NCBI GenBank assembly: GCA_028753945.1
Contig: JAPNXP010000016.1
Coordinates: 310,001-374,000, forward strand
Length of the DNA stretch: 64,000 nt
Direction: 5' to 3'
DNA from: Hexactinellida sp. DTS-2022
Lineage: Eukaryota; Porifera; Hexactinellida
A model generated the notes under the pieces. The model was not told the DNA's origin and did not search any database. It saw only the letters and a program-made list of their open reading frames with translations. A program made the translations under genes and the position numbers. This document shows, in pieces, positions 11,384 to 38,503 of the stretch (positions are counted from its first letter, which is position 1; each line of letters begins with the position of its first letter).

Positions 11384-14056
11384 TCACCAAGTTGGCTTAG
11401 CAGATATTTCCCCACCTCTCATTTGCGTAAGCACGGGTGTATCAGTGTTGTATGGAACACGTTGTTGCATTTCAACATTATCATTTTGGTAAGTGTAAAA
11501 AGGTGGTGGTTGGTCAACGTTACTATCTAGATACCCGTGAACAACAGGCGCACTGGGGTCAAGCTCCTTTGCCCCGCGACCAGCTCCGCCAGAAGGAATG
11601 CTGTTTTCGTCTTCTTCAAACCAAGATTCGTGTTCTCGTCGCACGCTGTAGCGAGCAACTACAAACGAGAAAATGGCTGACAATAACAAGAATAATAACG
11701 CCCATCCCAAACAGAACCATAGACCATTGAAATTGCGTAATACTCCAAGGAATATAACATCGACAACAGCTGTATAGAAGTCAGTTAAGAACTGGCACTT
11801 TGGAATGTTATCTCGCACGTAGAGCAAATATGTTAGCGCGTTTGCCTCTAAAGTGCTTATAGAATCGTTAATCAGGCCATTAGTGAGGTCAGTTAAATTA
11901 CTAGCAAATTCTGTCACGGTATTAAACGCCATTGTCAATGTCACATTAACCTCATTTAGGCCACTAGTTAGTGCATTCAAATTCCCCTGTGTGGATGATA
12001 TAATGCCATTAGCCTGTGGCACAAGATTCATTTCCACATTAGTCAAATCCAATAGGATTTCTTCAGCAGAAGTCTTTAATGTATCTAGCGAGGCTGAACT
12101 AGGAAGCGAGTCAATCATGCTTATCAAATTCAACAGAGGTGTTTTTGCATTGTTGATATTCATTACAACCTGTGATGTGTCTAAGTCAGCTGTTACACTA
12201 TTCGCCGCATCAAAGTCAAAATCCGCTGTATCATACATATTGATAGAAGAAGTGTAGCTATCAATAATCCCATTAGAAATAACATTAGGATTAATTTGCC
12301 CACGTATATTCTGTACTTCGTCATTCAATAGTACACTCACATTACTAATTATCTTGTTAGCCAAATCATCAGCTTGTAGTGCACTCAATAAGGTTTGCCC
12401 ATTTTGGCAAGCCTCGAAAATATGCGTAACATTAACCTGCAATGTAAATGTACCTAAATTCCCCGCTTGAATTTCCTGTGAAAAAGACTCCAAACAAGGC
12501 GCTACATAAATAAGAATAGATTGGTCTACGAGCGGTTGTGAGACTGTTGTTAACAATGACCCAACAGAAAACATTACCACCAATATTGGTATCATTAACC
12601 ACGTCATTAAAAAGCTCACATATCCGGACAATGTTAACAGCACAGCTCCTGTGTTAGAAAGGCCGGTTCGCATGGACGGCTTCTTTTCACTGTCGTAACC
12701 AAAGAAGACGATCACAAGACCAACCACTGCGAACAACACGCTAATGATAATCAATACAAACACAATAATAACAACAGCAAGCATGATTTTAGTTACAATA
12801 GAGTAGGTATTCAGGAATGAAGAAGGAGTCACGCCTAAAGAGCTCAGTAAATTGTTAAACCGGAAAGATGTGAGGTCCTGACCGATCGTATCAGCTAGTG
12901 TTGAGAAAGTATTACCAATATCGAATGAAGCTAAGATATCCAAATCATCAAATGTACCCCGTAACGTGTTTAACTCTGAATCAATACGTGATGTCACGTT
13001 GTCAACCACACTTGCGAGATCAGCTGTATCTAATTGATTCAACTCCATAACTACTGCCGAAATATCAGGTACATTGCTAGGTAGCAATCCGGTTGCTATG
13101 GAGGAGGGTATCGCACTACAGTCTAGGCTTGCAGAAGCACACTGTGTTTGTAAGTTGTTAAGTTTCATGGTTAAACCGTCAGCCGCGCTATTAAGGTTAG
13201 TTATAAGTGTAGAAGCGCCTGTGAGATCCGCTTGTAATGCGTTAGCAGATAACTTTAACGAATCTATGACACTAACAGAAGAGTTAAGTTGAATTACGAG
13301 TCCATCTAAACGTGTGCCGAACGAATTATCAAAGAATCCCTGTACTTGAATAATAGTTGCTTCGAAAGTCGCATTCAATTGTGTCTGAATAGCAAACTCA
13401 AGTTGGCTACTCAACCCACTCAAAGTGCTATTGATAAAATCCAGGGAATTATCGTATATTGTAGGCACGCTCTCAATGTATGCATTGAGACTGATGTAGG
13501 TAAGAATACCGAACAAACACCCTATAATACACAAGAAGAGAAACACGAGGAGAAAAGGGGACCAAATACAGAGGTTAACAAGGGTGCAACGAGGAGTCAG
13601 ATTCTGCGAACGCTCGGCTCCACAGGAATGACATAAGACTCTACAACAACAGACAATACAACAAGTACAGGCTACCGCAATACACATTAATATCCCAAAT
13701 ATAGCCAGTATAATAATACCAATCAACCATGTTACGTATACAGACTGGTTAGTATTGGCAGTTTCAACAAACGCATTGGGATCCGAGGCAATACAAGAAG
13801 AGTTACCTATTTCCACAACAGAGTCAAATATAGGAATTATCCCTGTGGATATACCATTGGAAATGCCGTCTGCAGATGAGTACACGAAAGATAAGTAGGA
13901 TGGATTAGTGAATTCGAATAAAGTAGCGCCACCTGTTTGATCAGGGGGAGGATCAAGTATCAGAGAACCATTTGGGGCGAATTGAAATGTGTTTTGTTGT
14001 TGGGTGAATACGCTGGGTGTGAGTGTGAGAAAAAGCGCGAGTGCGATGGCAATCAT
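11384..14056 (-). CDS. PROM: Prominin-like five-transmembrane protein (intronless)
   Basis: A single 890-residue frame. It has an N-terminal signal peptide (about 1-18), a short outer segment, TM1 at about 108-132 followed by a Cys-rich stretch (CTCCIVCCCRVLCHSCG), and TM2 at about 163-190. A large outer loop with many N-x-S/T sites runs to TM3 (about 421-453); TM4 is at about 470-503. A second large glycosylated loop leads to TM5 near 780-805 and a cytoplasmic tail with proline/tyrosine runs. This order, the two big loops and the length (prominins are about 850 residues) match the prominin family, whose members shape plasma-membrane protrusions and bind cholesterol. Tweety proteins also have five TMs but are much shorter. 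It lies 557 bp beyond the Delta stop on the same strand. The absence of introns is unusual for prominin genes. Confidence 0.82.
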   Translation of the reverse strand: MIAIALALFLTLTPSVFTQQQNTFQFAPNGSLILDPPPDQTGGATLFEFTNPSYLSFVYSSADGISNGISTGIIPIFDSVVEIGNSSCIASDPNAFVETANTNQSVYVTWLIGIIILAIFGILMCIAVACTCCIVCCCRVLCHSCGAERSQNLTPRCTLVNLCIWSPFLLVFLFLCIIGCLFGILTYISLNAYIESVPTIYDNSLDFINSTLSGLSSQLEFAIQTQLNATFEATIIQVQGFFDNSFGTRLDGLVIQLNSSVSVIDSLKLSANALQADLTGASTLITNLNSAADGLTMKLNNLQTQCASASLDCSAIPSSIATGLLPSNVPDISAVVMELNQLDTADLASVVDNVTSRIDSELNTLRGTFDDLDILASFDIGNTFSTLADTIGQDLTSFRFNNLLSSLGVTPSSFLNTYSIVTKIMLAVVIIVFVLIIISVLFAVVGLVIVFFGYDSEKKPSMRTGLSNTGAVLLTLSGYVSFLMTWLMIPILVVMFSVGSLLTTVSQPLVDQSILIYVAPCLESFSQEIQAGNLGTFTLQVNVTHIFEACQNGQTLLSALQADDLANKIISNVSVLLNDEVQNIRGQINPNVISNGIIDSYTSSINMYDTADFDFDAANSVTADLDTSQVVMNINNAKTPLLNLISMIDSLPSSASLDTLKTSAEEILLDLTNVEMNLVPQANGIISSTQGNLNALTSGLNEVNVTLTMAFNTVTEFASNLTDLTNGLINDSISTLEANALTYLLYVRDNIPKCQFLTDFYTAVVDVIFLGVLRNFNGLWFCLGWALLFLLLSAIFSFVVARYSVRREHESWFEEDENSIPSGGAGRGAKELDPSAPVVHGYLDSNVDQPPPFYTYQNDNVEMQQRVPYNTDTPVLTQMRGGEISAKPTW

Positions 14057-14613
14057 TCCAAATAAACCAAGCTAGAATACAACAATACAATATGTAACTG
14101 AAAATACAAACTTACTTGCCTATATACTCAAACTAGTTTGTACTAATTTGAATATACAGCAAGAGTATATGTGAATTCAATGAGTACTAGAAATGATATC
14201 ATGATACAAGTGCAAAGTAGACTTCATGAAGCTAAAGAAATTATACATGATTAAGCGGACAAACTGTCGCTAAGCAATACACACATTCGATTATTGTGAG
14301 CTAACCAAGTGTTCATAATGGAATTGTTAAAAAAACAGGCTTAGATATACATCGGCCAACCCGAATATAAGAACAGCTCATCAAAAAATGACCTTCCAAG
14401 TACCTTAGAATTATAAGGGATATATTTGACACACTAAATTCCTTAGCAACTGAAATAGTTATGATTGTGAAAATCAGTGCAATATTCCTAAAATGAATAT
14501 TTGTTGTCAGAAAAAATTAACACTATCAAAAACATGAACACATAGATAAAATAGAATGTACAGATGTGGGGAATATACACATAAAAAACAAGTTCAAAAA
14601 TACAAATTCTCAT

Positions 14614-15707
14614 TCAATTATTTCCATACTCATTCTCTTCAACACCTGGGCAGAAAGTTAATGAGGTGACCGCAGTGGCCTCGTTATAAATACCCATTAT
14701 AGGCGCATCGATATCGTTAGCGGTTGGAAAATCATTTATATCATTATAAGCTGATTTCATTACATCAGGACTACTCAATGGTTGGTTTGGAATACTCGCA
14801 CTGAATGATTGATTCGGTTCAGCGAGATACAAATTCTCTTCTGTTGCTACACCACCATAATGTGGATTGAAAGTTACAGCTGTAACATCTGTTTGTTTCT
14901 CAATTCCAACACCAGTAATATAAGCAGGGTTATTGGTAACAGCTTCATCTGGTAATCGATACGTTATCTCTTCATAGTTATTCACATCGAGAGATTGGTA
15001 ATGCTCATCTATAAGAATTATGAACATTGTTTCTGAGAATAATTAGAGTATACATTTGTATCCAAAATTGTATTCTCATAATCATTAATAATCAAGAGAT
15101 TACTTGGAAATAGCATTGGATAATTTGGATTGCGTAAAGCAAGACTAATAATTATGGAAACGTGGCCATTTAATTCAGAGGAAATATTATCAACGAGCCA
15201 TTCTGTCTCGGTCGCTTTGCGATGGATCTCTATTTACTACATATCTATCTACCTACGTACTACATTATTCCAGTTTAATAATAAAATGCTCACGCTTGAG
15301 TTTGGAAGAATTATGCCTATGAATTGTATAAATTTTTCGAGCCCAGAAAACAGGGCTTACTTATATATCGGCCAAAACCTTCCCAACTCAAAAACCCCTG
15401 TTCGCAAAGGTAATTTTTTTTGAAAAAAATGACTTAGCACAGTGTATAAATTACATTACGAAAGGTGTTGGCCGATATATAAGTAGTTACCTCAGAATAA
15501 TATAGTATTTGTAGCATTCACACATATCCTTGTAGTAGTATACAGTTAATAATTATCAATTACCTTCATTAACTGCAACTTTAGAGTCCCTTCTCTTCAA
15601 GAAACAACAACAACAACAACACACAACGAGACATATGAGTAAAGCTAGGATGATAAAAACGATGGAAGGAGTTAAAACGTAGTATAGGTAGTCTGCTGTG
15701 GTTAATC
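14614..15707 (-). other. Transmembrane and cytoplasmic-tail exons of the Delta gene
   Basis: Exon 19 (15707-15564) codes the membrane segment (LTPSIVFIILALLICLVV), then six consecutive Cys from a pure TGT run, then the stop-transfer cluster FLKRRDSK. Exon 20 (15032-14614) codes the rest of the tail, with NPAY (about 922-925) and NPHY (about 943-946), acidic stretches, and the end NEYGNN before the stop. Confidence 0.85.
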
Positions 15708-18700
15708 CTAGCAATACAAATAAATAAATAAATAGAGTTAATTAAATGTTTTGGTAAACAACTGTACGTATTTGGAAATTATTAGGCGTTAAAACGACAA
15801 ATTCGTATGGTATCATTCATTTACTTAAACCAGCGATTCCCAACCTTTTTCAACCGTGGACCCCCTATAGTCATTCTGTGGACCCCCTCCCATTGACCGT
15901 AATACATCCTGTGACTAAGCAAAACTAAGTATAATCTTAACCTGGAACAAAGTGGGTATTCTCAAAGTAAACTAAGTCAAAACTTAGAACATATTTAGTT
16001 TGGAGATTAACCTTAGTTCTTGTTCAACATACAATAAGTTTTTGCTGAGTTTTAAGAATGAAAACTAAGTTTAAATTTAATTTAGACACAGTTTAAGTTG
16101 AAATAATAAAGGCAGTGATTTCAATACTGTGCCACTATACTAAAGTATTGTCGGCACAGTCAAAATGTTAATCCTAGTACAAATTAAAAATCAATATTAT
16201 GGAAATACCTTGAAATGAACCTAAAAGAAGAACGAACATATATAAAATAATTGAAGAGCAAAAAAAAAACAACAGCAAGAAACGTACCAATCTCCGCACA
16301 AGTGAATGTATCAATACCTATAAACAAGACAATAATTAAATTTATGTCAATTTCTATATCTATATTATTAAAACTCGATTGTTGTGTGTTTGTGTGTTTG
16401 TTTATTGGTCCATATTGTATTAAAGTGATGGGGGAATAGAAACCGCATTTAACATTGAGATAGATATAAACTAACTTTCAAATGTTATTACAGTACATAA
16501 TGGATATAGTGATATAGGATATAGTGATAATTTTGCCGCTTTTGATGTGTTCCCGAGCAATCCCATACAAATTTTATTGGTTATAGTAATATCATTATTA
16601 GATATAGTGATAATTTGTGCACAGATTATACAAGAACATTGGATTTTGACCTTGTTGTCCCCATAAATTTCATATTTTACAGTATAAATATCGTTACCAC
16701 TTGAATTCGATAAGGAATTTGATTATACTTATGAGAATATAAGTATTGACAATGTATACAGTCATATATTAGACGCAGTGATACAGTGGATAAAGTGATA
16801 GTATATAGTGTGATATACGTATTGGATATAGTGATAATTTGGCCAAAAATCCAATATCCCCACCATTATCACTATATCCATTATGTACTGTATAGCTATA
16901 GGTAAACAAGTATGCTGAACACGAATTTCGCATTTATAAATTTCAATATCAATATTTGTTTTGAGAAAATTCAAAATCAACCTAGAAGTTTGCTTTCAAC
17001 GGATATTATAGATACAAGTTAAAACTATGGAAAATGGTAGAAAGGGAAACATATATAACATCCTCCATGGTGGAAAGGGTGAGGAGTAAGGCCGCATAGC
17101 GGCCGTTAACTTGAGGTGTGTTGCACCGATCCGTCGCAAAGCGACCGAGACCGAAGGGCTCGTAATTATTAAGGCTTACCACTCCCAGCATTAGGACAAT
17201 TGCAGTAATACGATCCTTGTGTATTAGTGCAGTTAACCCCACTAGGACAAGTGTTGTCTCCACTCAAACATTCATTCAGATCAGACTGACACAGATCCCC
17301 TGTATACCCTTGAGGACAGGTACAGTTGAATGTAGACAGGTCAAGGTTAACATCCAAACAGGCTCCACTGTTACAAGGGTTAGGTATACAGCTGGTATTC
17401 TCTAGAGGAGTTAATTGGATAATAAACTTGAGTTAAGCTAAGGCTGGTATTCTTATAGCACTTTTTATTTACAGTAGACTCTCGGTTATACGAGTACCAG
17501 CGGACCGTCGAAATGTTTTTGTATTTATATCCGGAGTCACTTGCATGCATTAAACCTTGTACTCCTTAACCGATATTTCTGATTTTTGACTTATCCGTGT
17601 CCGTATTAACAGTCTACTGTGCCTATATATCATGTATGTATGTACGTAGTCATAATAATATGCCTATGCCCAAATGTATGTATGTATTGGTGCATTGTAT
17701 TCACAATATAGATGATATCCAAGCGAATTGTGGTTTAAAAATGAATCTGTTATTCTTAATGGAAACAAACAACACTAACGGAATCTACAGTCTTTCCCCT
17801 TCCAAGGAGAAATGCAGTCACAAGAGTAGTCATTGCTCCCATCCGTACAAGGAGCAGAGTTGTGACAGGGGAACTGAGCGCACTCATCGATATCTAAAGC
17901 AAATGTAACGTTAAACGGCCTCTGAAAAGCAGGAGTACAATTAATTACAATCACTAATATACATTAGTAAAAATCAATTGTTGTATGTTTGTTTGTTTGT
18001 TTGTTTGTTTGTTTGTTTGAAATAGGGGAATAATAACCGCATTTATATTTGAGATGGAGACTAACTTCTAAATGTTATAACAGATAAACATGTGTGCTGA
18101 ATTCGAATTTCGAAATTAAAATTTATAATGCGAATATTTATTGTTGTTGTTCACAAAAATAAGTAACGAATTATTAATTAACAGGTTCTACTAAATTTAA
18201 TTGAATAAATCAAGACCGCGTAGCGGTTGAGTGATCTGTCGCGAAATGACCGAAATCGAAGGGGTCATAATTCTTAAACTATTGCCTACTTTACAATTCC
18301 TTAATTTCAGAAGAAACCAAATAATTGTAATTTCGAAGTTCAAACTATGTTTGAACCTTGTTTATGCACAAAGTAAATTCCGTAAATAAAAGGAACATAA
18401 CTATATAACGTACTAATGTCGCAGAGGGGTCCAGTAAAGCCAGGCTGACAGATACACTCAAATGAGTCTGTAACCCCACCAAGGCACTCAACGATGTTAG
18501 AAGAATTGCAAGGTTTTGAGTCACAGTTGATAACTAAAGGAACATAAAAAATAAGGAATTTGTTATATATTTTTCGGTAAACACCTTATCTAATGTAATT
18601 TTCTGGATATTTTTATAATATAAAAAGTCACCATTGTGAAAAAAGGAGTTGACCACTGGCGGATTCTTGAAAAAATCCTGGGGGAAAAATTGAACTTATC

Positions 18701-21700
18701 AGAGCTACTTTTTGAAAACTACAATTTGTTGGGTGGGTATATCTCCAATTCGATATTTTCTGATTCTATATTGTACGTTTATATTTGTTACCATTAGCCA
18801 ATATAATTAATAATTATAAATATTTCTTGTTTTCTAATTAATTTCAGTTATTCTAATGTTGAAAAACTGGGGGGCGATTGCCCCCCAAATGTCCCCCCAG
18901 GAATCCGCCGATGGTGTTGACCGTATTATATATACTAGCGCGCTTCGCTTACTAGGTCGCTTCGCGGCACCACACACAAACCGCGGTTTGTGTGTGCTTT
19001 ATACTTCAAACATTAATTATGTAGCGTGAATAGGCCTAAAACAGTAAAATTTAAGTTTATTTAACCATGTTAAATTTTAATCAATACGTCACCATGCGAT
19101 AATGAGTAGGCATATTGATGATATGCTGTTACCAACGTGTCCGCATCGCTAATGTGCATGTTCAATTAAATCTTCAGATTTTTATCTCTAAGAGGGTGCG
19201 AATTATGTGCGATTAAGTGAATTTTAATGGGGTTCACAAATGTGAGAAGGACATCATAACTTGGAGAGGTGTGAGATTTTCGAGTGGAAACCTAAACTTG
19301 TTGTCGGGTACAGTGATGTTTTTTGGGGGGGGCTCTTTTATCCCAGGGGGGGCGCTCCTTCCTATCAGTTATCTATAGATTCATTATTGAGGGCCGTTTT
19401 CACCTATGTTTTCTAAGAAAATGCTAAATTTGAAAAGGGTTCGCCCCCCCACTTCTTTTTTTGGCAAAACACCACTGGTCGGGTACCAAAGTTACAAAAA
19501 TCAGATTTGGAAACCGTCCAGTTTCTTCAAACAACTCGGAACATATAAACAAATATACATATAAATACATACAGCCGTGTTTTAATAGTACATACGTATA
19601 AATAAGTAAGATCTTTAAATAATAACTTTGTATATTTTCCTATTAATTAACCTAAGCTGGCATGGGGTCTGAAGTATAAATTAAAAAACCCACATTCATT
19701 TTCACTTACAATTGAAATTCAATTAACTTTCAGTTTCAGTTTTACGTTCCGAGCCAGCTTTGGGATTAATTGATTAATTAAATAGTTTCTACGGTCTCAA
19801 ACGCTGAAAATACTCAAAAAACAGCACCTACCCTCTCTACATAGAGTGCCTTTATATCGGTCTCCACATGCACAAGTGAAGTTGTTCACTTCATCACTAC
19901 ACACCCCATTTGTACCACATACTGATGTAGAGCCAGGAAACTGCACAATAATAGTACTGAGCTTTGTCATGCATTCATCAAGTTCTAAACAAAGCAAAAT
20001 ATGAAAATAAACGATATACAACCCATAATTAATTTTAATTATTCATGTAAGACCGGAACATAGGTGTCGAACTTTCCAATTTTTCTTAAAATCTCGGGGG
20101 GGGGGCAGCCAGAGAACATTTAAAAGACATTTATTTTATGTTGCAATTAATAAGCAAAAATCACACATTAATTTTTAACGTAAGTGAGATGTAAATTTAC
20201 TGAGAAAGCTTAGCATAAAAATAGATGCACATTTCTTCTATTTTGTAGCCTCAAGTTCACTATAGACCATATGATTGCAAGTTGTGATGATATACACAAA
20301 ATTGAACTCTTGTTATAGCTCACCAATTTCACACTTGGGGCCTGTATAACCGAGGGTACAGTCACAACTGAAACCATACACTCCATCAATACAAATCCCG
20401 TCACCACAGAATACATCCACACAGTCGTCAATGTTCTCTGCACAGAATTCTCCTCTGAATCTAAATTGTTAGACATTCGATCATGGACAAGAAATATGAA
20501 TAACACCATCACCACCACCAACAACAACAACAACAACAACAACAACTTACCCCAGCACACACTCACATGTGTAGTTAAATCGATTGTTAATACAACTTGA
20601 ACCATTCTTACAGGCATTTCCCATAGCGCAATAATCCGTGCGATCAATACAAGTATCCCCCTCAAACCCAACAGTACAGTTACAGCTAAAACCGCCTAAA
20701 AAGTTTGAGCAAGTCCCGTCGTTGTTGCAAGGTGTTAAATCACACTCATTGATATCCGTATCACATAGTGTACCTATTAGAAGAATGAAATTGGAGGATA
20801 AAATCTATATTATAAAAACTCGATTGTGTTTGTTAGTTTGTTTGTTTGTTTATTTATTTGTTCGTTTGTCCGGGTTGTGTTAAAGTGATGGGGGGAAATA
20901 TGTATAAATTTAAAATATGAATATTGGCATTCAGAAATTTCAAATATGAATATTTATTGTTGTTGTTTACAAAAAATAGATAAACAAATTAATTAAAATC
21001 AGAATGAACTTAGAGGCTAGTTCTAAACGTTAGTAAAGGTAAACAGTATGCTGCTTACGAATTCAATTTTTCAAAACTTTAATATTTTTGTCTATTGAAA
21101 AAAGCGAGACGGAATGGCTCGTTAAAGTATTATAAAATAAAAATGAAGGTAACGGACTCTGAAAATATAAAAATTCCGACAGCATGTCCCTTGGAGGCAC
21201 TATCTTTTACTACTTTTAGTGGTTGGTCATTTGATAGTGCCTCCAAAAGAAAATGCTGTTGGCAAAGATGTAATTTTAGATTTTTCTGGCATGTCATCAT
21301 CACTAAAAGGTGTTTCGGATAATTAGTAAAATAATCATTAAATTTATTAATAATTTATTAATAATTTATTAATTAAAAAACGAATTTGACTGATTTGGAA
21401 TATTATCAATTAAAATATAATTAGGCTATAATATTTGAATTCCGCACACTCAATAACCCCTATAAACAAACTGCAAGCGTCTCAAAATGTTAAATACAGA
21501 TTGAATTAATTAGAATTAATTACGTCAGTATAAATAGTGCAAGAGAATTCTAGCCAGGAAATATACTCACATAATGTGTCGTTGTTGGAGTGTATACTCT
21601 TAGTTTTCAATTAGATAATATAAAGCCAACTCATAAGTTTGAATCAATATAATTATCACAATTTGAAACAATAAAATTACATTATATTCAGACCATAGTG

Positions 21701-24700
21701 ACAAAGTGTATTAGACACATAGACAAAAGTTAGTTATTACAAAGGCTAATTTAAGGTAGGAATAATTATTGATGAGATCTTCCAATCGAAACAAAAGTTA
21801 TGTTGTTGTCGAAAAGTATTAACAAATATATGTTTCTGTTTGAATCTAATATTCTTTCAAACGAATATTCGTTTCAGCCTTATAATATTGTTACTGTTGT
21901 GAAATTAAACAGGTGTAAAATGTGTCCAAAAAATGTTTAAAAAATCGTGACCCCAGGTGCAAATTAGACAGTCACCCAACACCTTTATGCCAATTTTTCA
22001 GCCATCAACTATAAAGCACTGGCCAGGGTACCGTCTACGGAGAAAAAGAATAATAAAGGAAGCGATATTAATACTGGCTCACTACATAGTAGTCGACACA
22101 GAAAAAGCCCTGAATTTCATCATTAACTTTAACCGTTCCGTTCATGTGCATGAAAATAGCGTATTTGGCGTTTATGTTATTAGGACACATATTTGTAACT
22201 CACCTTGGTACCCAGGATTACACATACACCTGAAATCATCCCCAGCCAGATCAACACATGTACCATCATTGTTACAAGGATTAGGAGCTGGTGTAGAGGG
22301 GCAGTTGTCCAAGTTGTCCCCACAATAAGTACCCAAATACCCATCACTATAAATAATAAGAAAGTAACATATAGAGGTATACGTGTATAATGCATATTGT
22401 GACCAATTTAAATGGGCTTACTCATAAACGGTGAAAACATGCTCAACGTAAACTCCGGATTTGCAAACATTAATTTTGATCTTAAAATGAGTTGTCGGTG
22501 TCTGAAGATTAAATCGGGAAAATTTGTTAGCCGATATATTAAATTTGGTAATTCGCTAAATGTAGGAAATAGAATGATACTAAGGCAAAAATAAAAGTCG
22601 TACATGTAATAATTCGAGAACTGACAGAATTCCCAAATGAGTTGCAAAAGCTTTTAAGCACTTACCTGCAGGTACAATTGAATAGAGTATTTCCTCCAAC
22701 GTTATTAACACAAGTAGCGCCATTAAGACAAGAGTCAAAATCAGCTGAGCAGTAATCAGGAGAAGGGTTTGCACTTGAATCTATACAAAGAATGAGTACA
22801 GTATACTCACGCTAATAAAACAGCCGAACACGGAGAGGGCGAATATCAAAATATCAGTTAAGAAGTACTAAGTTTAATTCCCCTAGCCTATTACAAATGC
22901 ATGCAAGTGATTCCAGTTAATACGAATATCCGGATAATACGAATCAATTTAGACGGTCCCCTGATGTTCATATTATGAGAGACAACTATAGTAGGATAAC
23001 TCCGTGATAAATTTAAGAAGATCCATTGATCATCAAATCTAACTTGAATTCGCCTTTCTGAAAAAGATTACTAGTTGACTTACCGAGAGAGCAGTTCCGT
23101 CCAACAAAACTCTGATTTGTACAATCACAAACATATCCATTCACAAAGTCCATACATGCTCCAGTCTGGCAGGGATTAATCGCACACTCATCAATTTCTA
23201 ATAAAAAGTTTGGTGATAATTGTTACACAAAAGGCGAAAAATTTGGAAACTAGATTTACCCAGAGTAAAAAAATGCGCCATATATAAACTGCTTAACAGC
23301 ATTATAAACAAAATATGATATGTAAAAACTTTGACACCAATTGAAGATTTTCAAACAAAAAATTAAGCTGAAAAGGACTATTAGTTTTCGCGTTTGGAGC
23401 TAAATAAAAACTACACGGGCACAAATTCATCATCTGAAAAGATAAATATAACAAAAGAATAGGACACAATTAATACACAAAATCAAGACAAATTATTATT
23501 GATAGTTAAGGTAGCGGAAGCACAACTTCAACAAACGATGCAGGGAAATTTCCAACAACTCCATTGAATTCTCCCTCAAACCATTCTTCATTCAACTTTT
23601 GTAGCAAACAGATCATATCACCTGATTTGAAATTTAAATCCCCAGAAACATTTTCGTTATAATCATATAAAGCTTTTGCACGCGGTAATAACTCTTCGTT
23701 TATTTGCATTGTTTTAGCAAATTTGATATCAGTATTAGGTTTGTCAACAATAACACTTGGAGTTGTGTTTATTTTCTCGATAAAACTGACTGGAAAAATT
23801 CCCTCAATTCCATTCAACTCTCCTTGTAACCACTCATCAGTGACACTTGTGATATTATATATGACGTCACCCGCGTTAAAACTAAGATCACCTTCTGTTC
23901 CACCGGGAAAATCATAAAGAGCACTGCCAGTGTATCCAGTGTTTCCAGTGTCAACTTTCACAGGAGGTTCGGATGGCTTTTCAACAATTTCTTTTGGTAT
24001 ATCAGGGAGTGCTTCAATGACCTCGATAAAAGCTTCAGGGAATATCCCCTCCTCATTTCCACCTGGCAATATGCCTTTATACCACCCGTCACCGAGTTTT
24101 TCTAGCAGGTAAACAAATCCACCTGTAAACAAAGGCAAATCCTCTGGATGAACGCCGGGAAAATCGAAAATAACTTTCGCGCGTGGGCCTTCCATATAAT
24201 CTTCTGGATTAGGCGGGCCTTCCTCTAAGTCGGTGACAATCTCCACTTGAGATTTTGGGAACATTCCAATCGCCCGTGTACGTTCGCACTCTCCCTCAAT
24301 CCATGTCTCACTCAGATATTTCACAAGAAATACAACATCACCCTTTTTGAAATTTAGATCTCCATCTACACCAGACGTATAATCATGTGTCGCAACAGCA
24401 AATGGTTTATCTTCGGAAATAATTTGCCCACCTTCATCAGGTAATTTTCTAACAACTTTAATATTGCTAGCCAGCACCAGACCTTCGTCATCACCTTCAT
24501 TAGCACAGTAATACCAGTTATTGTCCAGACGTTCTAAAAGCATTAGAAACTCTCCCTTACTGATACTGAGCATATCTTGGTGGTTGCTGGGGTAATGTAT
24601 TAAAGCGAAGCCGTGTGGCTCCGCACACACATACTTGTAGAGAGGATGTCCGGGTTCAGGGCGTGGAGGTAGAGACGGAGCTTTTAGCTGTACAGCATTT

Positions 24701-27700
24701 GTCGTTTTCGTATCGCTTTTGGGAACGTTGGGCCTATTTGGCTTGGGGTTTCCCGGGCGAGATGGCTTGACTGGAGCGATTGATTTCGAGGATGGGGGTG
24801 GTTTATCTATTTGGGATGCTGGAGGGGGGGCGCGTTTTGAAGGGGCAAGGGGCTTGTTTGCTGGGGGGGCCACAGGGCGTCTTGGTGATGGTTTTGCATA
24901 CACAATCGGTTCGGTCGATTCCGCGGTTTTAACCACCTTCACTTGATTTGCGGATTCCGGGTGTGCTTGAACTGGTTTGAGGGATGTTTTGGCCGTGATG
25001 GGTGGTGGGGGTGCTTTCCTAATTGACGGATTTGTATCTGTCACAGGTGGTGCAACAGGATCATGGTGTATAATTTCGGGTGCAGGAGGTGCAGATTGTG
25101 GCTCTTCAGTGTTTGCGACAATCGGGACTTCTGATGCAGGCCGTCCCGGACGGGGAGGTGGTGGAAATCGAGATGGCGGTTTAGATGTCGGTTCAGATTC
25201 GATAGATTTCTTATGCGTCTTATCCGTGGCTTCTTTCTCCAGAATATTCGACAGAAAAATATCGGACGGAGGAGATGTAGGCCGATTCGGTCCCCTCTCG
25301 TCGCTCTTCAATATGGTAGGCGCCATGCTTGGCCTAGTGGGTGATGTCGCAATAGTTTCATTTGTTTCGGAGGGAATTTCAAAATTCATATAATTCTGCG
25401 GTTTGGGAGGCACCGGTTTTGAGGTGATAGGAGGCGGCAGAGTGGTGTCGGTGGAAGGTTCGCCTACAGGTCGCGAGACCAAGTGAAAGGGATGTGCCGC
25501 GGTGATTGGTTGGGCGGAAATAATAGTCACATCCTTATTCGCAGTAGAGGGGGGTGGGGTAGGGTGCTTTTGAGGTTTGTTCGTCGGGGCAGGGGGTGGA
25601 CCATGTTGTCCCGCTTGTGGGGGCAGCGGGGGAGGGGGCCGGCTGCTACCTGATTTTCTGGATGAGGGATGGTTGGGCGGTAGAGGGGGAGGATCTCTTG
25701 AAGTAACAGGCTGGTCTGATGACATTGTAAACGCGTTACAGTTGCAGTATGTATCGTTAGGCTATTGTATAAAGTAAAGGAGTAAAGGGCCATTCAAACG
25801 ATAACGCTTCCAAAGTTGGGGTTAACCAATATGTGAGAAAGCATCCTTTTGCATAATAAAGGGTAAAAAGCGTGAGGGGGTCCTAATTTTCAGGAAATTT
25901 GCGTTACCTAACATTTGAACGACCCTTAAATAATAGAATGCAAAAGTTAGTCAAATATGATTTTATTTGTTATCATGTGTGTTGGTTCAGTTTAATTATG
26001 AATCTGATCAATTCGGGGAAATTAGCAAATTGGTTGCCATTTCTAAGGACATGAAAGGACACACTGGATGTTTCGTGAAATAATAAAATGCGTGAGTTAT
26101 GTATGATTGATAGAATAGCGACAATTTAATATGAATTTATCCCAAAAGGAATTCATACTAATATTATATTAGCAGATTTCCTATAGGGACCTCTCTATGT
26201 AGTGGAGCGACATTTGGTTATACTGGGGTATTTGTATGGCGGTTTACATACCATTTTTGATAGAACCTCAATGCATAATTCCTATCACACAACTACACCT
26301 TCTAAGTATTCCATGTAGGGGCGGATCCAGAAATTATTCAAAGGGGGGGTTGTCATTTTATAAAAAAATACCACATTAACAGCTGGGGGTCTGGGGGCTT
26401 CGCCCCTGGAAGCAAGATACGATATAATGCTATTTACCCAACTTTCAATACCTAACAAATGCGATGCTTAGTGGATTATTCTGGACATTTCGAAAATTTA
26501 CGAGACCATATGTCACACTTGGACATTGTTTCTTAGGATGGCCCAAATTCCCAGCAAGGGTTCTGAGGACGATGTAATACCCCCACATTTGGGGCGAGGA
26601 GGGATTATTAATTAAAGACAATATGTAGTCCTGAGATCAAATAACTATAAAGGTCCATACTATACTATTAGAAGTTATTAGTAATTTGGAAAATAATCAA
26701 ATAGTATTAGAGGTCAGGGACACTAATTGAGGTAATTATAGCATCTGACACAACTGCACACTAATTAAGACAGAGTATAGTGAAAATCAAAGGGAGGGTT
26801 GCAAACCCCCCTGGAAGCGTCATACAACAGGTGTAATGATAATAGATATAGTATTGTACCTGTTTCGCAGAACTCCCCAGTATACCCAGCTGAACAGTAG
26901 CAGGTAAAACTTCCAATTTGATTAACACAGTCACCGAATGAACAGTTAGAAGTTGGGCAATTGTTAATAACTACAGAAGAGCGTGTTTAAATCACAATCC
27001 ATGGTTTAGAATCAAATAATTTGATTTCTCGCTTACTTTGTGAGCAATTCTTCCCTTCATAACCTAACTCACAGATACAGTCATAATCTGTCATGTGGTT
27101 ATTACAAGCTCCGTTAGTGCAGGGGTCTGGGATGCAGAGGTTGATTGCTAGAAATAAACAATGACAAGTAACTAACGTACAAATAAATGAATAATAAACA
27201 AACAAATAACAAATAACAAATAAACAAACCAAACAAATAAATAAATGAAAAATTAACGAACGAATATAATACTGTAAACGTAAACAAAGGAATTATCATA
27301 CTATATCGACCAACACCTTTTCTTATGTAATTTTCAGCCACAGGCAATGTCTTAGAATTTCAAAGATTACTTTTTGCGAAGTCAGGTATTGAAAAGTGTT
27401 GCTCAATATTTAAGTATGTCCATTAACAAACAAACAAACAAACAAACCTGTTTCACAGTTGGTACCAGTATATCCGTCAAAACAAGTACACGAATACTGG
27501 TTAATGCCAGTGGTAGTACAGACGCCATTGTTACATACTCCTGGGTTGTGTTCACAGAATTTAGTATCTATCAATATATAATAAAGTGAAGAATAAAATA
27601 AATAAAGTAGTCGTATAATAAAATAAAAATTACATACCTTGGTCACAATTAGTGCCTTGATAATCTGGATGGCATTTGCAGTTAAAAGCAGCATCACAGA

Positions 27701-30700
27701 ATCCACCGTTCGAATCTAAAACGCAAGCAGATTATAAATAGGCGTCGACAATAGAGATTAAGTAATTATACCAACCGCAGGTAGGACTTGGAATGCATTT
27801 GCTGCATGTAGCACCCTCCCATCCACTGTTACAGCTAGGAGAGAATGGAATTCATAAAAATAATACATTGACAAAAACATTTATATAAAAACTCACATGC
27901 AAGTGAATGGTGTAGTACAACCACCATTGAGACAGCCATTACTACAGATAGCTACAGATATGGTAATAGTTAGAATGGATAGATAAAACTATAAATTTTA
28001 CATAAGTCAAGTAAATTGTGAAATTTTAAAAGAAAGGTCGCATCCATCATAATATGAATGTATTCGCGGAAACCCAATTACGTATTAATAGATAAAATAT
28101 CACCATGGAAAAAATTTAGGATAACATCATGGATAAAACTCACGTGTCCTGCAGTTACTCCCAGAATATCCATAATTACACACAAATGACCCATCATTTG
28201 GATTGCATGTGTAATGTCCCAGTGCAACGCTATTTTGTGCTACACAATACATGCTACACAAACTGCCATAGTAATTTGCGGAACAAGTTAAGGTCTTCGA
28301 TACCGTCATTATGCTACCAAAAGTCCCTGTGAAAGTGCTGATAGTAGATAGACTTGATGATGACGTCACTGAGAAGTCGATTACAAATCTGTCAATCAGG
28401 TCATTACCGGAAATGGAATCTCCATCAAAAACAACAACGAATAGCTGCATCACGCCCTGTATAAATACACAATATATACGTAAATGAGAATCCATGGTTA
28501 TTTATATCTCATCGCCAAAGCCATAAATTCGTTTTCGGTGAACTTTAAAACACAAAGGAATTTTTAGTTTATACGATTTAAGTTCTTATTTAAACTAAAG
28601 ACATCCGAAACTGTATAATTACAATGCCTTGGTCCCGTTTGAATTCTAAAAGAATTAAACGACAGTTTACTCAAGTTCTTATGGCTTAAATTATTTCAGA
28701 AAATGTCATAACTTTTTAATCAATTTGATCTCAAAAATGATATTCAATTCGTGCTCAGTCACTCATTTAGATTATTTTGTGCCTCAACAGTTTACCTGAT
28801 GCTTCCAAGCACTTTTAATATGGATAGATTCAGAATTCCAAATATTCCGGGTAGACATTAAAAGAAATAAAAAAACGATCATTAATAAATAGTGAACTCC
28901 CGTTATAACGAAATGGAAATTTCCCCCTAGACCACTAAATGGAATAAATATTATCCGCTTATAACGAATATCCGGATATAACGAAGGAATTTACAGGTCC
29001 CAAGCACTTCGTTATAACGAGAGTTGACTGTAGTTGAAGTGCTTAAAGTGAGCCAGAAATTCTAACTTGTGGTAATAAATTGTGACCACAAAGAAAGAAA
29101 AATTGGTCCACGATAAGCATCATAAGAAATTTGAATTTTCCCGAATAAGCGCCGGGTCAATAAAAATGGCATTTGCATGACAAAATGAATACCCATTAAT
29201 TGATAACCGAAGTGTAATTATGACGAATTTCGGTATAATTACTACCGCTGAGACCCATTAGAATCCATCTAAATATTATTTTCTGGATTTTAAAATTGTG
29301 TAATTGTGTAGCCCTGGAAACAATAAATATGCTACTTAAGTTATTACACTTCTGCTTACATTGAATGTGCTCGTAACGCCTAGCGTAAGAGGATTTGTTA
29401 CAGAATCTCCATTAAAAGTCGCAGAATTAAAATTGATAACATTCTGATCATTGTAGCGGTCAGTGGTCTGAGAAGAACTGCAACTAGTATCGGTAATAGA
29501 TGTCAAATAGTTGCGCCAGCAGAATATGAAGAAAGGGTCACAATAACAGGAAAGAAAGTCACAGCATCCGCCTCCCGCGTCCGTCCCACTCGGCCTGGAG
29601 AAACTATGCACTTGCAATTTGAGAATACCGGCAGATTCTATCAGTGGGATCTGGAGATAAAAGGAAAGCTCATATTCAGGTCGGTCAGGCCAATAGCTTG
29701 GCCATTCTTACGTCACTAGTTAGGCCGGCCAATTCATGGCCCGGCCTGCCCACTTTATAAGTGCTTCAGCCGGTCCTGCTATGTCATGCTATTTTGACAA
29801 TTTAGTAATACAAAAAGGATGATCTGTCACACTTTGATTACTCCCACCTCCCTTGGAAAACTAAGCGGTCGTTCAAACTACACGTTGCGAAAAATTCCCG
29901 AAAATTCGAGACACTTCCCCTCACTATACTACGTCACCTTGTTTGACCATTTTGTTTGTTGATCACTGTCACACATTTTAACCACCTTGAAAGCATTACG
30001 TAACATTTGAACGGCCCATAATACAAATCAGGCTTAGACCGGGTCAAGATTTCATGACCCGGTAAGTAAGTATACAGTGACAAGCGATACCAAAGAAGTT
30101 TCAATTGAAGTACTATGTCTCATAAATATTAAACGCCCTACTATATTAGATGAATCTTTCTAAGTTTATAATTCTACAAACCAATAAAATTTAGAAATTA
30201 CTTATATAGAGCTCAGCTCTAGTAGAGTTCAGTTTTTCAGTATGTGTATTCAGGCACTGAGAAAGGTCAGTGTTTTTCCAAGCTTTGAAACTGACCTTTA
30301 GAAAGTAAGCCTGGGCTTTTAGTATGGGAAAAAATCTGAACTCTACAAAGCTCAGCTCTATATAAGGATTATCTAAAATTTAATTAGCGTTACTGTGGAG
30401 AACCGGGTAAAATCAGAAATTAAGTGACCCGGTGACCCGATCCAAGCCGGATCCGGTAGTGACCCGGAATTTTAGCGAATATTGTGCTCCGGTTGACCCG
30501 GTCATATGAAGTAATTCTTGTTTAAACGAAGTCGTCCTTTCAACTGCAAACGGATAAAGTACAGTCAACTCCCGTTATAACCAAGTCGGATATAATGAAG
30601 TACTGTACCTGTTTATAACGAAGTCATTCAATGGTCCGCAAATCCTTCTATCTTATTACATTATTAAAACTTCGGTTACAATGAAATGGATATAACGAAA

Positions 30701-31392
30701 TGCCGCTTATAACGATTTCATTTAAATTCCATATAGCCTCTAATCTATTCATTTTACTCCGGTTATAACGAATTCTGCTTATAACGAACTCCGGTTATAA
30801 CGAAATCCGTTCATATTGAACTTCGGTTACAACGAAATCCAACTTACAATGAACTCTTTTAAGATCGAACTCCGCTTATAACGAAATGAAACTCGGTCCC
30901 GAGCACTTCGTTATAACGGGAGTTGACTGTAGTTGATATTTCATGCTTTTAACAACTCCGCTAATACGGAATAAATTACGGGTCCCTCGGACTTGTTCAC
31001 AGTACAGTAAAACATCCTTGACGAATAATCTCGTGATCAGAGGCGGTCCCAGCATTCGGGGCAAAAGGCCAAAAGCCCCAGTTAAAACATAATTCCCCGG
31101 GCCCCAGCCAAGTAGTTAGTATAATTCCCGGTTGGACAAATCCTCTGCTCGTGATATGTAATGCTTTCCTCGGTACCAAATTTGATGTACAAGATTTTAG
31201 ATTTAACCTAATTCTCGGTTAAGAGAGACCTATCTGAGAGAAAACATTTTTCCGGTACCATGGAGGTCTGTAAAATGTAAAATGAAAAGGGAATATCGAT
31301 GTTTCAAATATAAACGTTGGTCACTAGCAAATTTCTACGTAAATTTAACTCACCACAAAAGCAATCGAAAACAGACACAAAACAAACTTCAT
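14614..31392 (-). CDS. Delta: Delta/Jagged-type Notch ligand, 20 exons, 1026 residues
   Basis: Exons on the minus strand: 31392-31354, 29650-29360, 28456-28144, 27951-27897, 27834-27776, 27715-27638, 27567-27448, 27147-27037, 26970-26860, 23197-23084, 22780-22666, 22346-22204, 20773-20551, 20460-20324, 19984-19832, 18533-18414, 17893-17780, 17401-17180, 15707-15564, 15032-14614. All borders are GT-AG, phases match throughout, and the sum is 3081 bases. Order: signal peptide; MNNL domain (AGILKLQVHSFS, then paired Cys); DSL domain with six Cys at about 168, 177, 181, 194, 203 and 212; 16 EGF-like repeats, several calcium-type (DIDEC, DINEC), the last lacking its sixth Cys; TM at about 848-868; tail of about 155 residues with two NPxY motifs. 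It is a cell-surface ligand for Notch. There is no Jagged-type VWC module before the membrane, so Delta is preferred despite the high EGF number. A complete second gene sits inside intron 9. Confidence 0.9.
15359..15484. mobile_element. MITE, family ATCGGCCAACACCTT, in Delta last intron
   Basis: ACTTATATATCGGCCAAAAC at the left and GGTGTTGGCCGATATATAAG at the right are near-perfect inverted repeats. Confidence 0.75.
16357..17165 (+). mobile_element. Helitron-like element, interrupted by a MITE
   Basis: Starts TCTATATTATTAAAACTCG, continues with a GTTTG-type run and ACCGCATTTAACATTGAG, and ends in a GC-rich stem region near CCGAAGGGCTCGT. Further copies lie at 17960-18275, 20796-21125 and, in reverse, 61825-62330. 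TC at the start and a 3' hairpin are Helitron traits; there is no Rep/helicase coding. It lies in the Delta intron 15708-17179. Confidence 0.5.
16491..16890. mobile_element. TA-flanked MITE nested in the Helitron-like element
   Basis: CAGTACATAATGGATATAG is inverted at the right end (CCATTATGTACTG). TA flanks both sides, and the surrounding Helitron-like sequence resumes after it. A related partial copy is at about 31900-31975. Confidence 0.75.
17960..18275 (+). mobile_element. Helitron-like copy
   Basis: Shares the AATCAATTGTTG start, the GTTTG run, the ACCGCATTTATATTGAGATG block and the terminal stem region (CGAAATCGAAGGGGTCATAA) with the copy at 16357. It lies in a Delta intron. Confidence 0.45.
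18654..18913. mobile_element. hAT-like element CACTGGCGGATTC
   Basis: Ends ACTGGCGGATTCTTG and AGGAATCCGCCGATG are inverted. Flanks GAGTTGAC (18646-18653) and GTGTTGAC (18914-18921) form an 8-bp duplication with one mismatch. It lies in the Delta intron 18534-19831. Confidence 0.65.
20796..21125 (+). mobile_element. Helitron-like copy
   Basis: TCTATATTATAAAAACTCGA start, GTTTG run and the GTGTTAAAGTGATGGGG block. The end near AGACGGAATGGCTCG is diverged. It lies in Delta intron 20774-22203. Confidence 0.45.
23506..25725 (-). CDS. SH3D19: SH3D19/Eve-1-like adaptor with five SH3 domains, nested in Delta intron 9
   Basis: A single 739-residue frame. Residues 1-360 are proline-rich with many PPPLPP and PxxP-type ligands. 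Five SH3 domains follow, at about 371-428 (lacks the ALYDY signature), 442-497, 514-571, 598-652 and 681-735; the last has the classic KALYDYNE, EEWFEGEF and FPASFVEVV elements. A proline-rich N-terminus plus five C-terminal SH3 domains is the SH3D19 (Eve-1/EBP) layout; in vertebrates that protein binds ADAM proteases and endophilin and affects ectodomain shedding and endocytosis. The gene lies wholly within the 3.66 kb Delta intron 23198-26859 on the same strand, with no intron of its own. Other multi-SH3 adaptors (CIN85, ARGBP2 families) have three SH3 domains and fit less well. The start is the first ATG of the frame. Confidence 0.85.
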   Translation of the reverse strand: MSSDQPVTSRDPPPLPPNHPSSRKSGSSRPPPPLPPQAGQHGPPPAPTNKPQKHPTPPPSTANKDVTIISAQPITAAHPFHLVSRPVGEPSTDTTLPPPITSKPVPPKPQNYMNFEIPSETNETIATSPTRPSMAPTILKSDERGPNRPTSPPSDIFLSNILEKEATDKTHKKSIESEPTSKPPSRFPPPPRPGRPASEVPIVANTEEPQSAPPAPEIIHHDPVAPPVTDTNPSIRKAPPPPITAKTSLKPVQAHPESANQVKVVKTAESTEPIVYAKPSPRRPVAPPANKPLAPSKRAPPPASQIDKPPPSSKSIAPVKPSRPGNPKPNRPNVPKSDTKTTNAVQLKAPSLPPRPEPGHPLYKYVCAEPHGFALIHYPSNHQDMLSISKGEFLMLLERLDNNWYYCANEGDDEGLVLASNIKVVRKLPDEGGQIISEDKPFAVATHDYTSGVDGDLNFKKGDVVFLVKYLSETWIEGECERTRAIGMFPKSQVEIVTDLEEGPPNPEDYMEGPRAKVIFDFPGVHPEDLPLFTGGFVYLLEKLGDGWYKGILPGGNEEGIFPEAFIEVIEALPDIPKEIVEKPSEPPVKVDTGNTGYTGSALYDFPGGTEGDLSFNAGDVIYNITSVTDEWLQGELNGIEGIFPVSFIEKINTTPSVIVDKPNTDIKFAKTMQINEELLPRAKALYDYNENVSGDLNFKSGDMICLLQKLNEEWFEGEFNGVVGNFPASFVEVVLPLP
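25787..25926. mobile_element. MITE upstream of the nested SH3 gene
   Basis: GGGCCATTCAAACG at the left and CATTTGAACGACCC at the right are inverted. The left end is about 60 bp from the SH3 gene start codon. Related ends (GGCCGTTCAAA, GTTACGTAAC) recur at about 1620, 4690, 6346, 7270, 29866-30021, 56795 and 58165. Confidence 0.6.
26316..26820. mobile_element. hAT-like element GGGGCGGATCCAG, copy 1
   Basis: Begins TAGGGGCGGATCCAG and shares roughly 400 bp (GATGCTTAGTGGATTATTCT, CCCACATTTGGGGCGAGGAG and further blocks) with 32026-32798 and part with 52782-53035. It lies in Delta intron 9, upstream of the nested SH3 gene. The right end is not well defined. Confidence 0.6.
27301..27415. mobile_element. 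MITE, family ATCGGCCAACACCTT
   Basis: CTATATCGACCAACACCTTT at the left and a decayed inverse at the right, in the Delta intron between exons 27147 and 27448. Confidence 0.55.
28144..29650 (-). other. MNNL and DSL exons of the Delta gene
   Basis: Exon 2 (29650-29360, 97 codons) holds the MNNL/C2-like N-terminal domain, with CCDFLSCYCDPFFIFC as its Cys cluster. Exon 3 (28456-28144) finishes it and carries the full DSL module: Cys spacing 8, 3, 12, 8 and 8, with the landmark residues NYYG, GHYTC and GYSG. This is the Notch-contacting head of the ligand and the strongest evidence for the gene's identity. Exons 4 and 5 then code the first EGF repeat, with the PICSNGC start typical of DSL ligands. 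Confidence 0.9.
28891..29030. mobile_element. TA-flanked pogo-like MITE
   Basis: GTGAACTCCCGTTATAACGA at the left is inverted at the right (TCGTTATAACGAGAGTTGAC); flanks are TA. It lies in Delta intron 2. Confidence 0.65.
30201..30367. mobile_element. MITE CTTATATAGAGCT, copy 1
   Basis: Inverted ends CTTATATAGAGCTCAGC and GCTCAGCTCTATATAAG, with TAGAGTTCAG/CTGAACTCTA inside. Closely similar to 56257-56422 in an RRM1 intron. It lies in Delta intron 1. Confidence 0.75.
30562..30929. mobile_element. TA-flanked pogo-like element with internal repeat array
   Basis: CAGTCAACTCCCGTTATAAC and its inverse GTTATAACGGGAGTTGACTG form the ends, with TA on both sides. The interior repeats a unit like TATAACGAAATCCGCT many times at about 20-bp spacing. 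Same family as 28891-29030, but longer through internal amplification. Confidence 0.7.
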
Positions 31393-32025: not shown

Positions 32026-32798
32026 AGGGGCTTTGCCCCTGGAAGCCAGATATGATATAGTGCTATTTGTCCAATTTCAAATCCCGATCAAGTGCGCTAC
32101 TTAGTGGATTATTCTGGACATTTCAAAAATTTACGAGACCATATGTCACACTTGGACATTGTTTCTTAGGATGGCCCAAATTCCCAGCAAGGGTTGTGGG
32201 GGACGATGTAATACCCCCACATTTGGGGCGAGGAGGGATTATTAATTTAAGGCAATATGTAGTCCTGAGATGAAATAACTATAAGAGTCCATACTATACT
32301 ATTAGAAGCTAAGCAATTTATCTAGTATAAATAATAAATTAATGAAAATTATTAGGAATTTGGGAAATAATGAAAATTATTAGGAATTTGGGAAATAATC
32401 GAAAACTATTACAGGTTGAGGTCTCTAATTGCTAATTGAGGTAATTATATAATCTGGTACAACCATAGGCGCCGAAATGGGGGGGGGGGGTCAGGGGGGT
32501 GTTACCCCCCCTGGCCGAGGAGAATTCAGGGGAAAAAAATGGAAAATTATTCATTCCATAACGAGTTTGTACAAATATCAGTGGATGATGTATATATCTT
32601 TACAATTATGCCCATCAAACATTGATTTTATCCCCATAAGCATTGTTTTTTGAACTTTCACATTTGAATATTACGTCACACCCCCCCTAGCGTTTGAGAG
32701 TTTCGGCGCCCATGGGTACAACTGCAAACTAATTAGACAGAGTATAGTGGAAATCAAAGGTAATTTAAAATCAAAGGGGGGGTTGCAATCCGCCACTG
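32026..32798. mobile_element. hAT-like element GGGGCGGATCCAG, copy 2, interrupted
   Basis: Matches copy 1 from the GCCCCTGGAAG block onward and ends TTGCAATCCGCCACTG, the expected inverse terminus. It is split by the insertion at 32464-32714. Confidence 0.65.
32464..32714. mobile_element. 251-bp hAT-like MITE inserted in another element
   Basis: Ends CATAGGCGCCGAAA and TTTCGGCGCCCATG are inverted. GGTACAAC lies immediately on both sides (32456-32463 and 32715-32722), a perfect 8-bp duplication of the host repeat. Confidence 0.88.
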
Positions 32799-36801: not shown

Positions 36802-37843
36802 CAGGGTTGCCAATCCAATCCAATCCAATCGATAATCCAATCCAATCGATGTAAATTTTGGCAATCGATATCGATAACCAATCCAATCGATGATATGATC
36901 TGACAATCCAATCCAATCGATAATCGATAAAAATCATCGATTTTTTATCGATTATTTAATATTTATTGATTTTCAATAGTTTATTTATCGATTTTCAATA
37001 GATTATTTCTGATTTTCTATCGATTATTTATCGATTTTCTATCGATTATTTATCGATTTTCTATCGATTGTTTATCGATTATTTGTCGATTTTCTATCGA
37101 TTATTTATCGATTTTCTATCGATTATTTGTCGATTTTCTATCGCTTATTTATCGATTACTTGTCGATCTCTATCGATAAAATTGATAGACTATTTATAGA
37201 CGTTTTTCATTTAAATAATCGATTATCTATCAATTATTTATGGATTTCTATCGATTATTTATGGGTTTTCTATCGATTATTTATCGATTTTCTATCGATT
37301 ATTTATCGATTTTCTATCGATTGTTTATCGAATATTTGTCGATTTTCTATCGATTTTCTATCGATTATTTATCGATTTTCTATCGATTATTTGTCGATTT
37401 TCTATCGATTATTTGTCGATTTTCTATCGCTTATTTATCGATTACTTGTAGATCTCTATCGATAAAATTTATAGACTATTTATAGACTGTTTATCATTTA
37501 AATAATCGATTATCTATCAATTATTTATGGATTTCTATCGATTATTGATGGATTTTCTATGGATTATCTATCGATTATTTATCGATTATTTGTCGATTTT
37601 ATATTGATTATTTGTCGATTTTCTATCAATTATGCATTGATTATCCATCGATTGTGTATAAATTATTATAATTTATCGCCTTTACTCGCTAAATCGAAAA
37701 AATCGATAAAAATCGATAAAAATTCGTCGATAATTATCCAATCGATGAAGACTTTGGGCAATCCAATCGATAATCCAATCGATACAAAATTCAGCAATCG
37801 ATAATCGATAAGTTCTCTCGATTGGATTGGATTGGCAACCCTG
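36802..37843. mobile_element. hAT-like element filled with an ATCGAT satellite
   Basis: Ends CAGGGTTGCCAATCCAATCC and its inverse; GTTGAAAC flanks both sides exactly (36794-36801 and 37844-37851). The interior, about 36900-37680, is a tandem array of units such as TATCGATTATTTATCGATTT, with a higher-order repeat of about 286 bp (compare 37141 and 37427). Open frames through it are artefacts of the repeat. Confidence 0.88.
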
Positions 37844-38503
37844 GTTGAAACATTACATACGTATTTCCTTCCCTTTTAAATTTGGATCATTTTGAACAAC
37901 TGAACAACTGAACAACTTAATTAATTATATACACTTAAAAACGACAAATTGTATGACGTATATCCTTAGAAAGTATTTTGAGAAAATTAAAAGTAATCCA
38001 ATGGTCGGTTATACCAATTATAACTGGTTGATTAATCCCAATTTAAGCCAGCAGGACAATTTATCAGAACCCGTCAACAACAATGTATCTTTAACTAATA
38101 ACAATTTAAAATTTAATACTACAGTCAGGTTCTTTTATTATGAACATTCAAGGGACCAAAAATTGTGTTCATAATAGAGAGACTTCATAATAAACGAACT
38201 CAACTTAATACAAACCCTATGTAAGTTGTTAAATTGGGCCCGTAGGGTTTGTTCATAATAAAAAATCTTCATATTAAGCAGACGAAATCTTGTTCATAAT
38301 AAGCAGACCTGACTCTATTAACCAGTGTAGAACACTAGTACAATTCTTAATTTTGATCACAATCAGCTATGAAACCCATTCAATAGTACATATGTATAGT
38401 AGTACTTTTCAATTATATTATAAGTATAAATAGACTGAGTTTTCTTGCAATGTACATCATCTATCAGAAACAACAAAGAATTACTCAAAACTTCGAAAAG
38501 AAA

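Follow-up and report, generated by a model that had tools for sequence, protein, structure and literature searches.

In a 64,000-nucleotide (nt) stretch of the genome of the glass sponge Hexactinellida sp. DTS-2022, a single-exon gene encoding five SH3 domains lies inside intron 9 of a gene for a Delta-like Notch ligand. We call this whole stretch the window (C8:310001-374000, from an assembly of 112,398,167 bases in 18 contigs), and positions below are those of the window unless another contig is named. In our judgement this is probably an ordinary same-strand nested gene, that is, an independent intronless five-SH3 gene within intron 9 of one 21-exon Delta gene. The part of this reading that was directly observed comprises the reading frames, the exon borders, their phase, the domains and the one full-length SH3 copy found.

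Delta host and SH3 guest

The Delta-like gene lies on the minus strand and, when its exons are joined from the DNA, has 21 coding exons running from 31392 to 14614, rather than the 20 counted in an earlier note on this DNA. Spliced, it is a single open frame from Met to stop of 3087 nt (1028 residues and the stop), with GT/AG borders at 20 of 20 introns, and we infer from this that Delta would be made as a single transcript. Exons 1–9 (26860..31392, minus strand) encode a signal-peptide-like start, an N-terminal region, a DSL domain (Pfam PF01414, E 1.8e-9 and 6.1e-9) and the first EGF-type repeats. Exons 10–21 (14614..23197, minus strand) encode more EGF repeats (PF00008, E 5.4e-41, together with EGF_CA repeats), followed by a membrane segment and a cytoplasmic tail. 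The hydrophobic start and, near the end, the one membrane segment with its tail were recognised by eye in the translation; in the N-terminal region Pfam gave no match to an MNNL/MNLL domain at E 0.001. The DSL domain is confined to the part before intron 9, and the membrane segment and tail to the part after it. The two halves together are a normal, complete Delta; neither half alone is.

Intron 9 itself (23198..26859, minus strand) is the longest of the 20 modelled introns, at 3662 nt, and runs from the donor CAG/GTACAA to the acceptor TTTTTATTAG. The exons on either side, 26970-26860 and 23197-23084, are bordered by AG/GT and meet in phase 1 with Delta open throughout, as the earlier note had it; phase 1 is found at 15 of the 20 Delta introns, this one included.

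Wholly within 26859-23198, and on the same strand as Delta, is the SH3 gene (23506..25725, minus strand), which we recovered at exactly the coordinates first proposed for it. Its open reading frame (ORF) is an intact single exon from the ATG at 25725 to the TAA at 23506, 2220 nt including the stop, and its 739 codons specify a proline-rich N-terminal half and five SH3 stretches (SH3_1, PF00018, E 2.3e-56). Shuffling the bases of the ORF as mononucleotides 200 times gave a longest forward-strand frame of 179 codons, compared with the 739 observed. One full-length copy was found in the assembly; after it, the best of the 16 assembly matches spans query residues 598-738, at 36% identity.

Five SH3 domains on the C-terminal side of a proline-rich region make up the architecture of SH3D19/Eve-1, and the nested protein shares it. 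The name SH3D19 is tentative, resting on this architecture rather than on a sequence test. Among the PDB matches listed, the best for the nested protein is SORBS1 (2mox); an SH3D19 chain is absent from the best 60 of 193 rows for the whole protein (whether PDB holds SH3D19 was not established) and from the best 60 of 169, 153 and 192 rows for SH3 domains 1, 3 and 4, respectively, each searched alone.

If nested in this way, the SH3 gene would be transcribed from its own promoter, placed within the ∼1.1 kilobases of intron before its start codon, and its transcript would end at a polyadenylation (poly(A)) site of its own, lying either ahead of the next Delta exons or in them. Upon transcription through Delta, it would otherwise be removed together with intron 9.

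Alternatives to a single nested locus

Several observations weigh against nesting. Joins between EGF exons are in phase 1 within one gene and across separate genes alike, so that phase alone cannot exclude two genes, a caution the earlier note had itself raised. By leave-one-out scores with the 20 Delta introns as training set, the donor of intron 9 is the weakest of the 20 (−0.13, where the remaining 19 range from 4.15 to 11.53), and the exon-10 acceptor ranks 15th of 20 (3.97). Just before exon 10 there is an in-phase, signal-peptide-like ATG exon (23260..23302, minus strand), reading MLLSSLYMAHFFTL, with a phase-1 GT donor (score 5.55) that lies ∼60 nt ahead of the exon-10 acceptor; it is a candidate start for a second EGF gene. 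A scan for 12 poly(A) hexamers found none in the 308 nt from the SH3 stop to exon 10. Finally, no relatives of the SH3 gene were found in the viral_contigs and genome_contigs collections, although these hold mostly viruses and prokaryotes and the null is therefore no evidence about animals. As to the hexamers, the window has five other gene ends, those of Delta, prominin, EF-hand, Arf and ribonucleotide reductase (RNR), with the EF-hand and RNR ends placed by eye. Three of these are also without AATAAA or ATTAAA within 600 nt; the Arf end has AATAAA at +27 and the RNR end has ATTAAA only at +523.

The weak donor and the start-like exon would suit three tandem genes. The first would encode a secreted DSL-EGF protein and end within or shortly after exon 9, the SH3 gene would come second, and the third would be a distinct gene for an EGF membrane protein that begins at 23302-23260; the SH3 gene would then not be nested at all. 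Poly(A) hexamers lie in intron 9 where the first of these genes would end, ahead of the SH3 start (ATTAAA at 26130 and 25996, and AATAAA at 25967, occupying 25962..25967 on the minus strand), and there is a reported precedent in Botryllus fuhc, once taken as one gene and now resolved into a secreted and a membrane gene 227 bp apart (PMC3691228). The start-like exon is, however, of chance quality: equally good sequences turn up in 66 of 998 windows of 308 nt and in 198 of 1000 shuffles, and the score of its hydrophobic core, 1.54, falls well short of the 2.95 in Delta exon 1. In this count the 308-nt windows overlapped by 208 nt, both strands were included, and masking was confined to the exons of Delta, SH3 and prominin; a stricter hydrophobicity cut, applied at first, gave 32 of 998 windows and missed 23302-23260, and the cut was then lowered to the candidate's own score. 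Three genes would also divide what reads as one complete Delta into two parts that are each incomplete, and we hold this arrangement to be distinctly unlikely. The claim that no start, stop or membrane segment separates the two halves is not strictly true for the start, chance-like as the MLLSSLYMAHFFTL exon is. Behind acceptors of at least 60% pyrimidine, intron 9 has no last exon with a membrane segment, and behind acceptors of 50-56% it has four, one of them within the SH3 ORF. By comparison, the other 19 Delta introns gave four at ≥60% pyrimidine in 10,030 nt.

The same weak donor and AATAAA could instead belong to one Delta gene with two ends, which is compatible with nesting: some transcripts would stop early and yield a soluble Delta. 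This product would consist of exons 1–9 plus 31 residues read into the intron, where the frame is open for 31 codons, or of exon 9 joined to the short frame D-DEFVPV-stop (23411..23433, minus strand), a candidate alternative last exon whose acceptor at 23433 scores 8.52, against 3.97 for the exon-10 acceptor when left out of its own training set. Early ending might perhaps increase when the nested gene is active, by analogy with H13/Mcts2, where nested transcription is reported to promote host intronic polyadenylation (PMC13309782); in Drosophila, intronic poly(A) signals described as silent became functional once the 5′ splice site was deleted (PMC3890989). The signals here are nevertheless weak or chance-like, since AATAAA or ATTAAA is present in 11 of the 19 other Delta introns and a score of 8.5 or higher is reached by 6 of 554 intronic AGs, acceptor 23433 among them, and we regard two ends as unlikely. 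With a weak donor and an AATAAA ahead of the SH3 gene, DNA alone thus leaves some room for an early Delta end or for two EGF genes. A stronger version, in which intron 9 is a regulated switch that uses its weak 5′ splice site, its poly(A) signals and the SH3 promoter to choose between membrane-bound and soluble (exons 1–9) Delta, we find highly doubtful; if it were true, transcription of an adaptor gene would control the form of a Notch ligand. Most improbable is that Delta transcripts, under the Delta promoter, take in the SH3 ORF as a shared or alternative exon. Immediately ahead of 25761, upstream of the SH3 ATG, there is indeed an acceptor-like TATACAATAG (score 2.76), but exon 9 joined there in phase 1 meets a stop after one residue, and the product would have no coding sequence in common with Delta; a non-coding leader might still be spliced to it. 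An independent SH3 gene nested in one continuous Delta gene is the reading that we retain.

Origin of the guest and surrounding sequence

In other animals SH3D19 is generally a many-intron gene. In this genome long single-exon frames are usual: the 16 SH3 assembly matches include 7 distinct frames of 562-1834 codons, counting the nested gene itself, and single frames matching EGF reach 4261 codons. A recent retrocopy origin was considered and set aside, with no second full-length copy and no intron-bearing parent in the assembly. By eye, the SH3 stop is not followed by a poly(A) tract; no search was made for target-site repeats. The gene may be an old, decayed retrocopy, may have arrived intronless or may have lost its introns in place. 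A match at C5:5351240-5351623 falls in an intronless 571-codon frame that, by eye, looks like a PDZ domain and, after it, three SH3 domains.

Two dispersed repeats flank the upstream side of the SH3 gene within intron 9. The longer (26320..26793, strand not assigned) has at least 55 genome match rows, its own copy included, with 40 of 131 candidates scored, and a second window copy at 32027-32319. The shorter (25802..25926, strand not assigned) lies ∼80-200 nt upstream of the SH3 ATG and has 30 match rows including its own copy, with inverted ends seen by eye. A 12-13 base match, noticed by eye between the SH3 start (∼25720) and sequence ahead of Delta exon 1 (∼31560), was set aside as being of chance length.

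A search of the assembly with the Delta N-terminal exon gave no second locus that matches most of the exon. The DSL region has 6 other matches that cover most of it. Two of these places were examined as possible Delta paralogues; both adjoin EGF/FN3 frames and so are no help in testing Delta continuity. At one (C1:10727361-10729039; L070, 362-748 and 1105-2040) the DSL match stands directly before EGF and FN3 frames. At the other, the match at C1:782905-783264 is directly upstream of a 1997-codon frame (C1:783317-789310; L069, 818-6811) of which the DSL is only a candidate part; the 12 FN3 stretches, HRM and GPS of that frame make it adhesion-GPCR-like. A further, weak match, this one to the part of Delta with EGF, membrane segment and tail (21%, E 4.2e-4, query 12-200), lies at C16:5503750-5504340 on the plus strand, in a 775-codon frame.

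Elsewhere in the window, a prominin-like gene (11384-14071, minus strand; Pfam E 5e-37) is an uninterrupted 895-codon frame ∼540 nt downstream of the Delta stop, and an Arf-like GTPase (38387-39166, plus strand; Pfam E 9.7e-51) is likewise a single frame. The large subunit of RNR (54965-61063, plus strand) is multi-exon; one exon matches PF02867 (E 8.7e-63), and the rest and the end were placed by eye. Frames at 37013-37804 (plus strand) consist of a short repeated motif (IDYLSIFYRLF-like) and look like a tandem repeat in the DNA.

Comparison with published systems

Genes lying within introns of other genes are widespread in animals, sponges among them. Arrangements like this one are thus well known, and neither the rarity nor the functional pairing claimed for it earlier is supported. 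That same-strand nesting is rare is a weak claim: as quoted in an introduction (PMC3192792), ∼63% of human nested genes are on the opposite strand, which by subtraction leaves ∼37% on the same strand, and 41% are single-exon. Nested genes, like single-exon ones, are also common in several sponges, with nested counts of 2432 of 19,578 genes (12.4%) reported for Aphrocallistes vastus, 3358 for Amphimedon and 5032 for Sycon; the low counts for Oopsacas (83) and Ephydatia (0) are put down by those authors to annotation programs or method (PMC10282587). As to pairing, the proposed link between SH3D19 and ADAM proteases holds for vertebrate Eve-1, reported to up-regulate shedding of HB-EGF (PMC4103893), but it is reported to play no obvious part in regulated APP shedding (PMC2211485). 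Co-regulation of the SH3 gene with Delta through ADAM has no support here, nothing in the sequence pointing to it.

The locus would be one more same-strand nested gene in a developmental signalling gene, in what is probably an early-branching animal. It is also a warning about gene callers that do not allow nesting, which would split Delta or lose the adaptor. Should the weak donor yield an early-ended, soluble Delta, host–guest interference would be acting on Notch signalling in such an animal.

Our literature searches turned up no description that we recognised of this very arrangement, and the nearest published cases resemble it in part. Glassin, in Aphrocallistes vastus and Oopsacas minuta, is likewise a single-exon gene inside another in a compact animal genome, although guest and host are both different (PMC10282587). 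At H13/Mcts2 in mammals the guest again sits within its host and has an intronic poly(A) signal ahead of it; there, however, interference has been shown by experiment, at an imprinted locus (PMC13309782), whereas the SH3/Delta pair is known from its DNA. For the host, the comparison is with the Deltas of Amphimedon queenslandica as described in PMC3482393. The word ‘intron’ is absent from that text, and gene structure is therefore not comparable. The proteins are: the AmqDeltas carry three to ten EGF repeats (one has none), MNLL was recognised by domain software in only one of the five, just as it went unmatched here, and, like the glass sponge protein, they are described as combining a signal peptide, a DSL domain, EGF repeats and one membrane segment.

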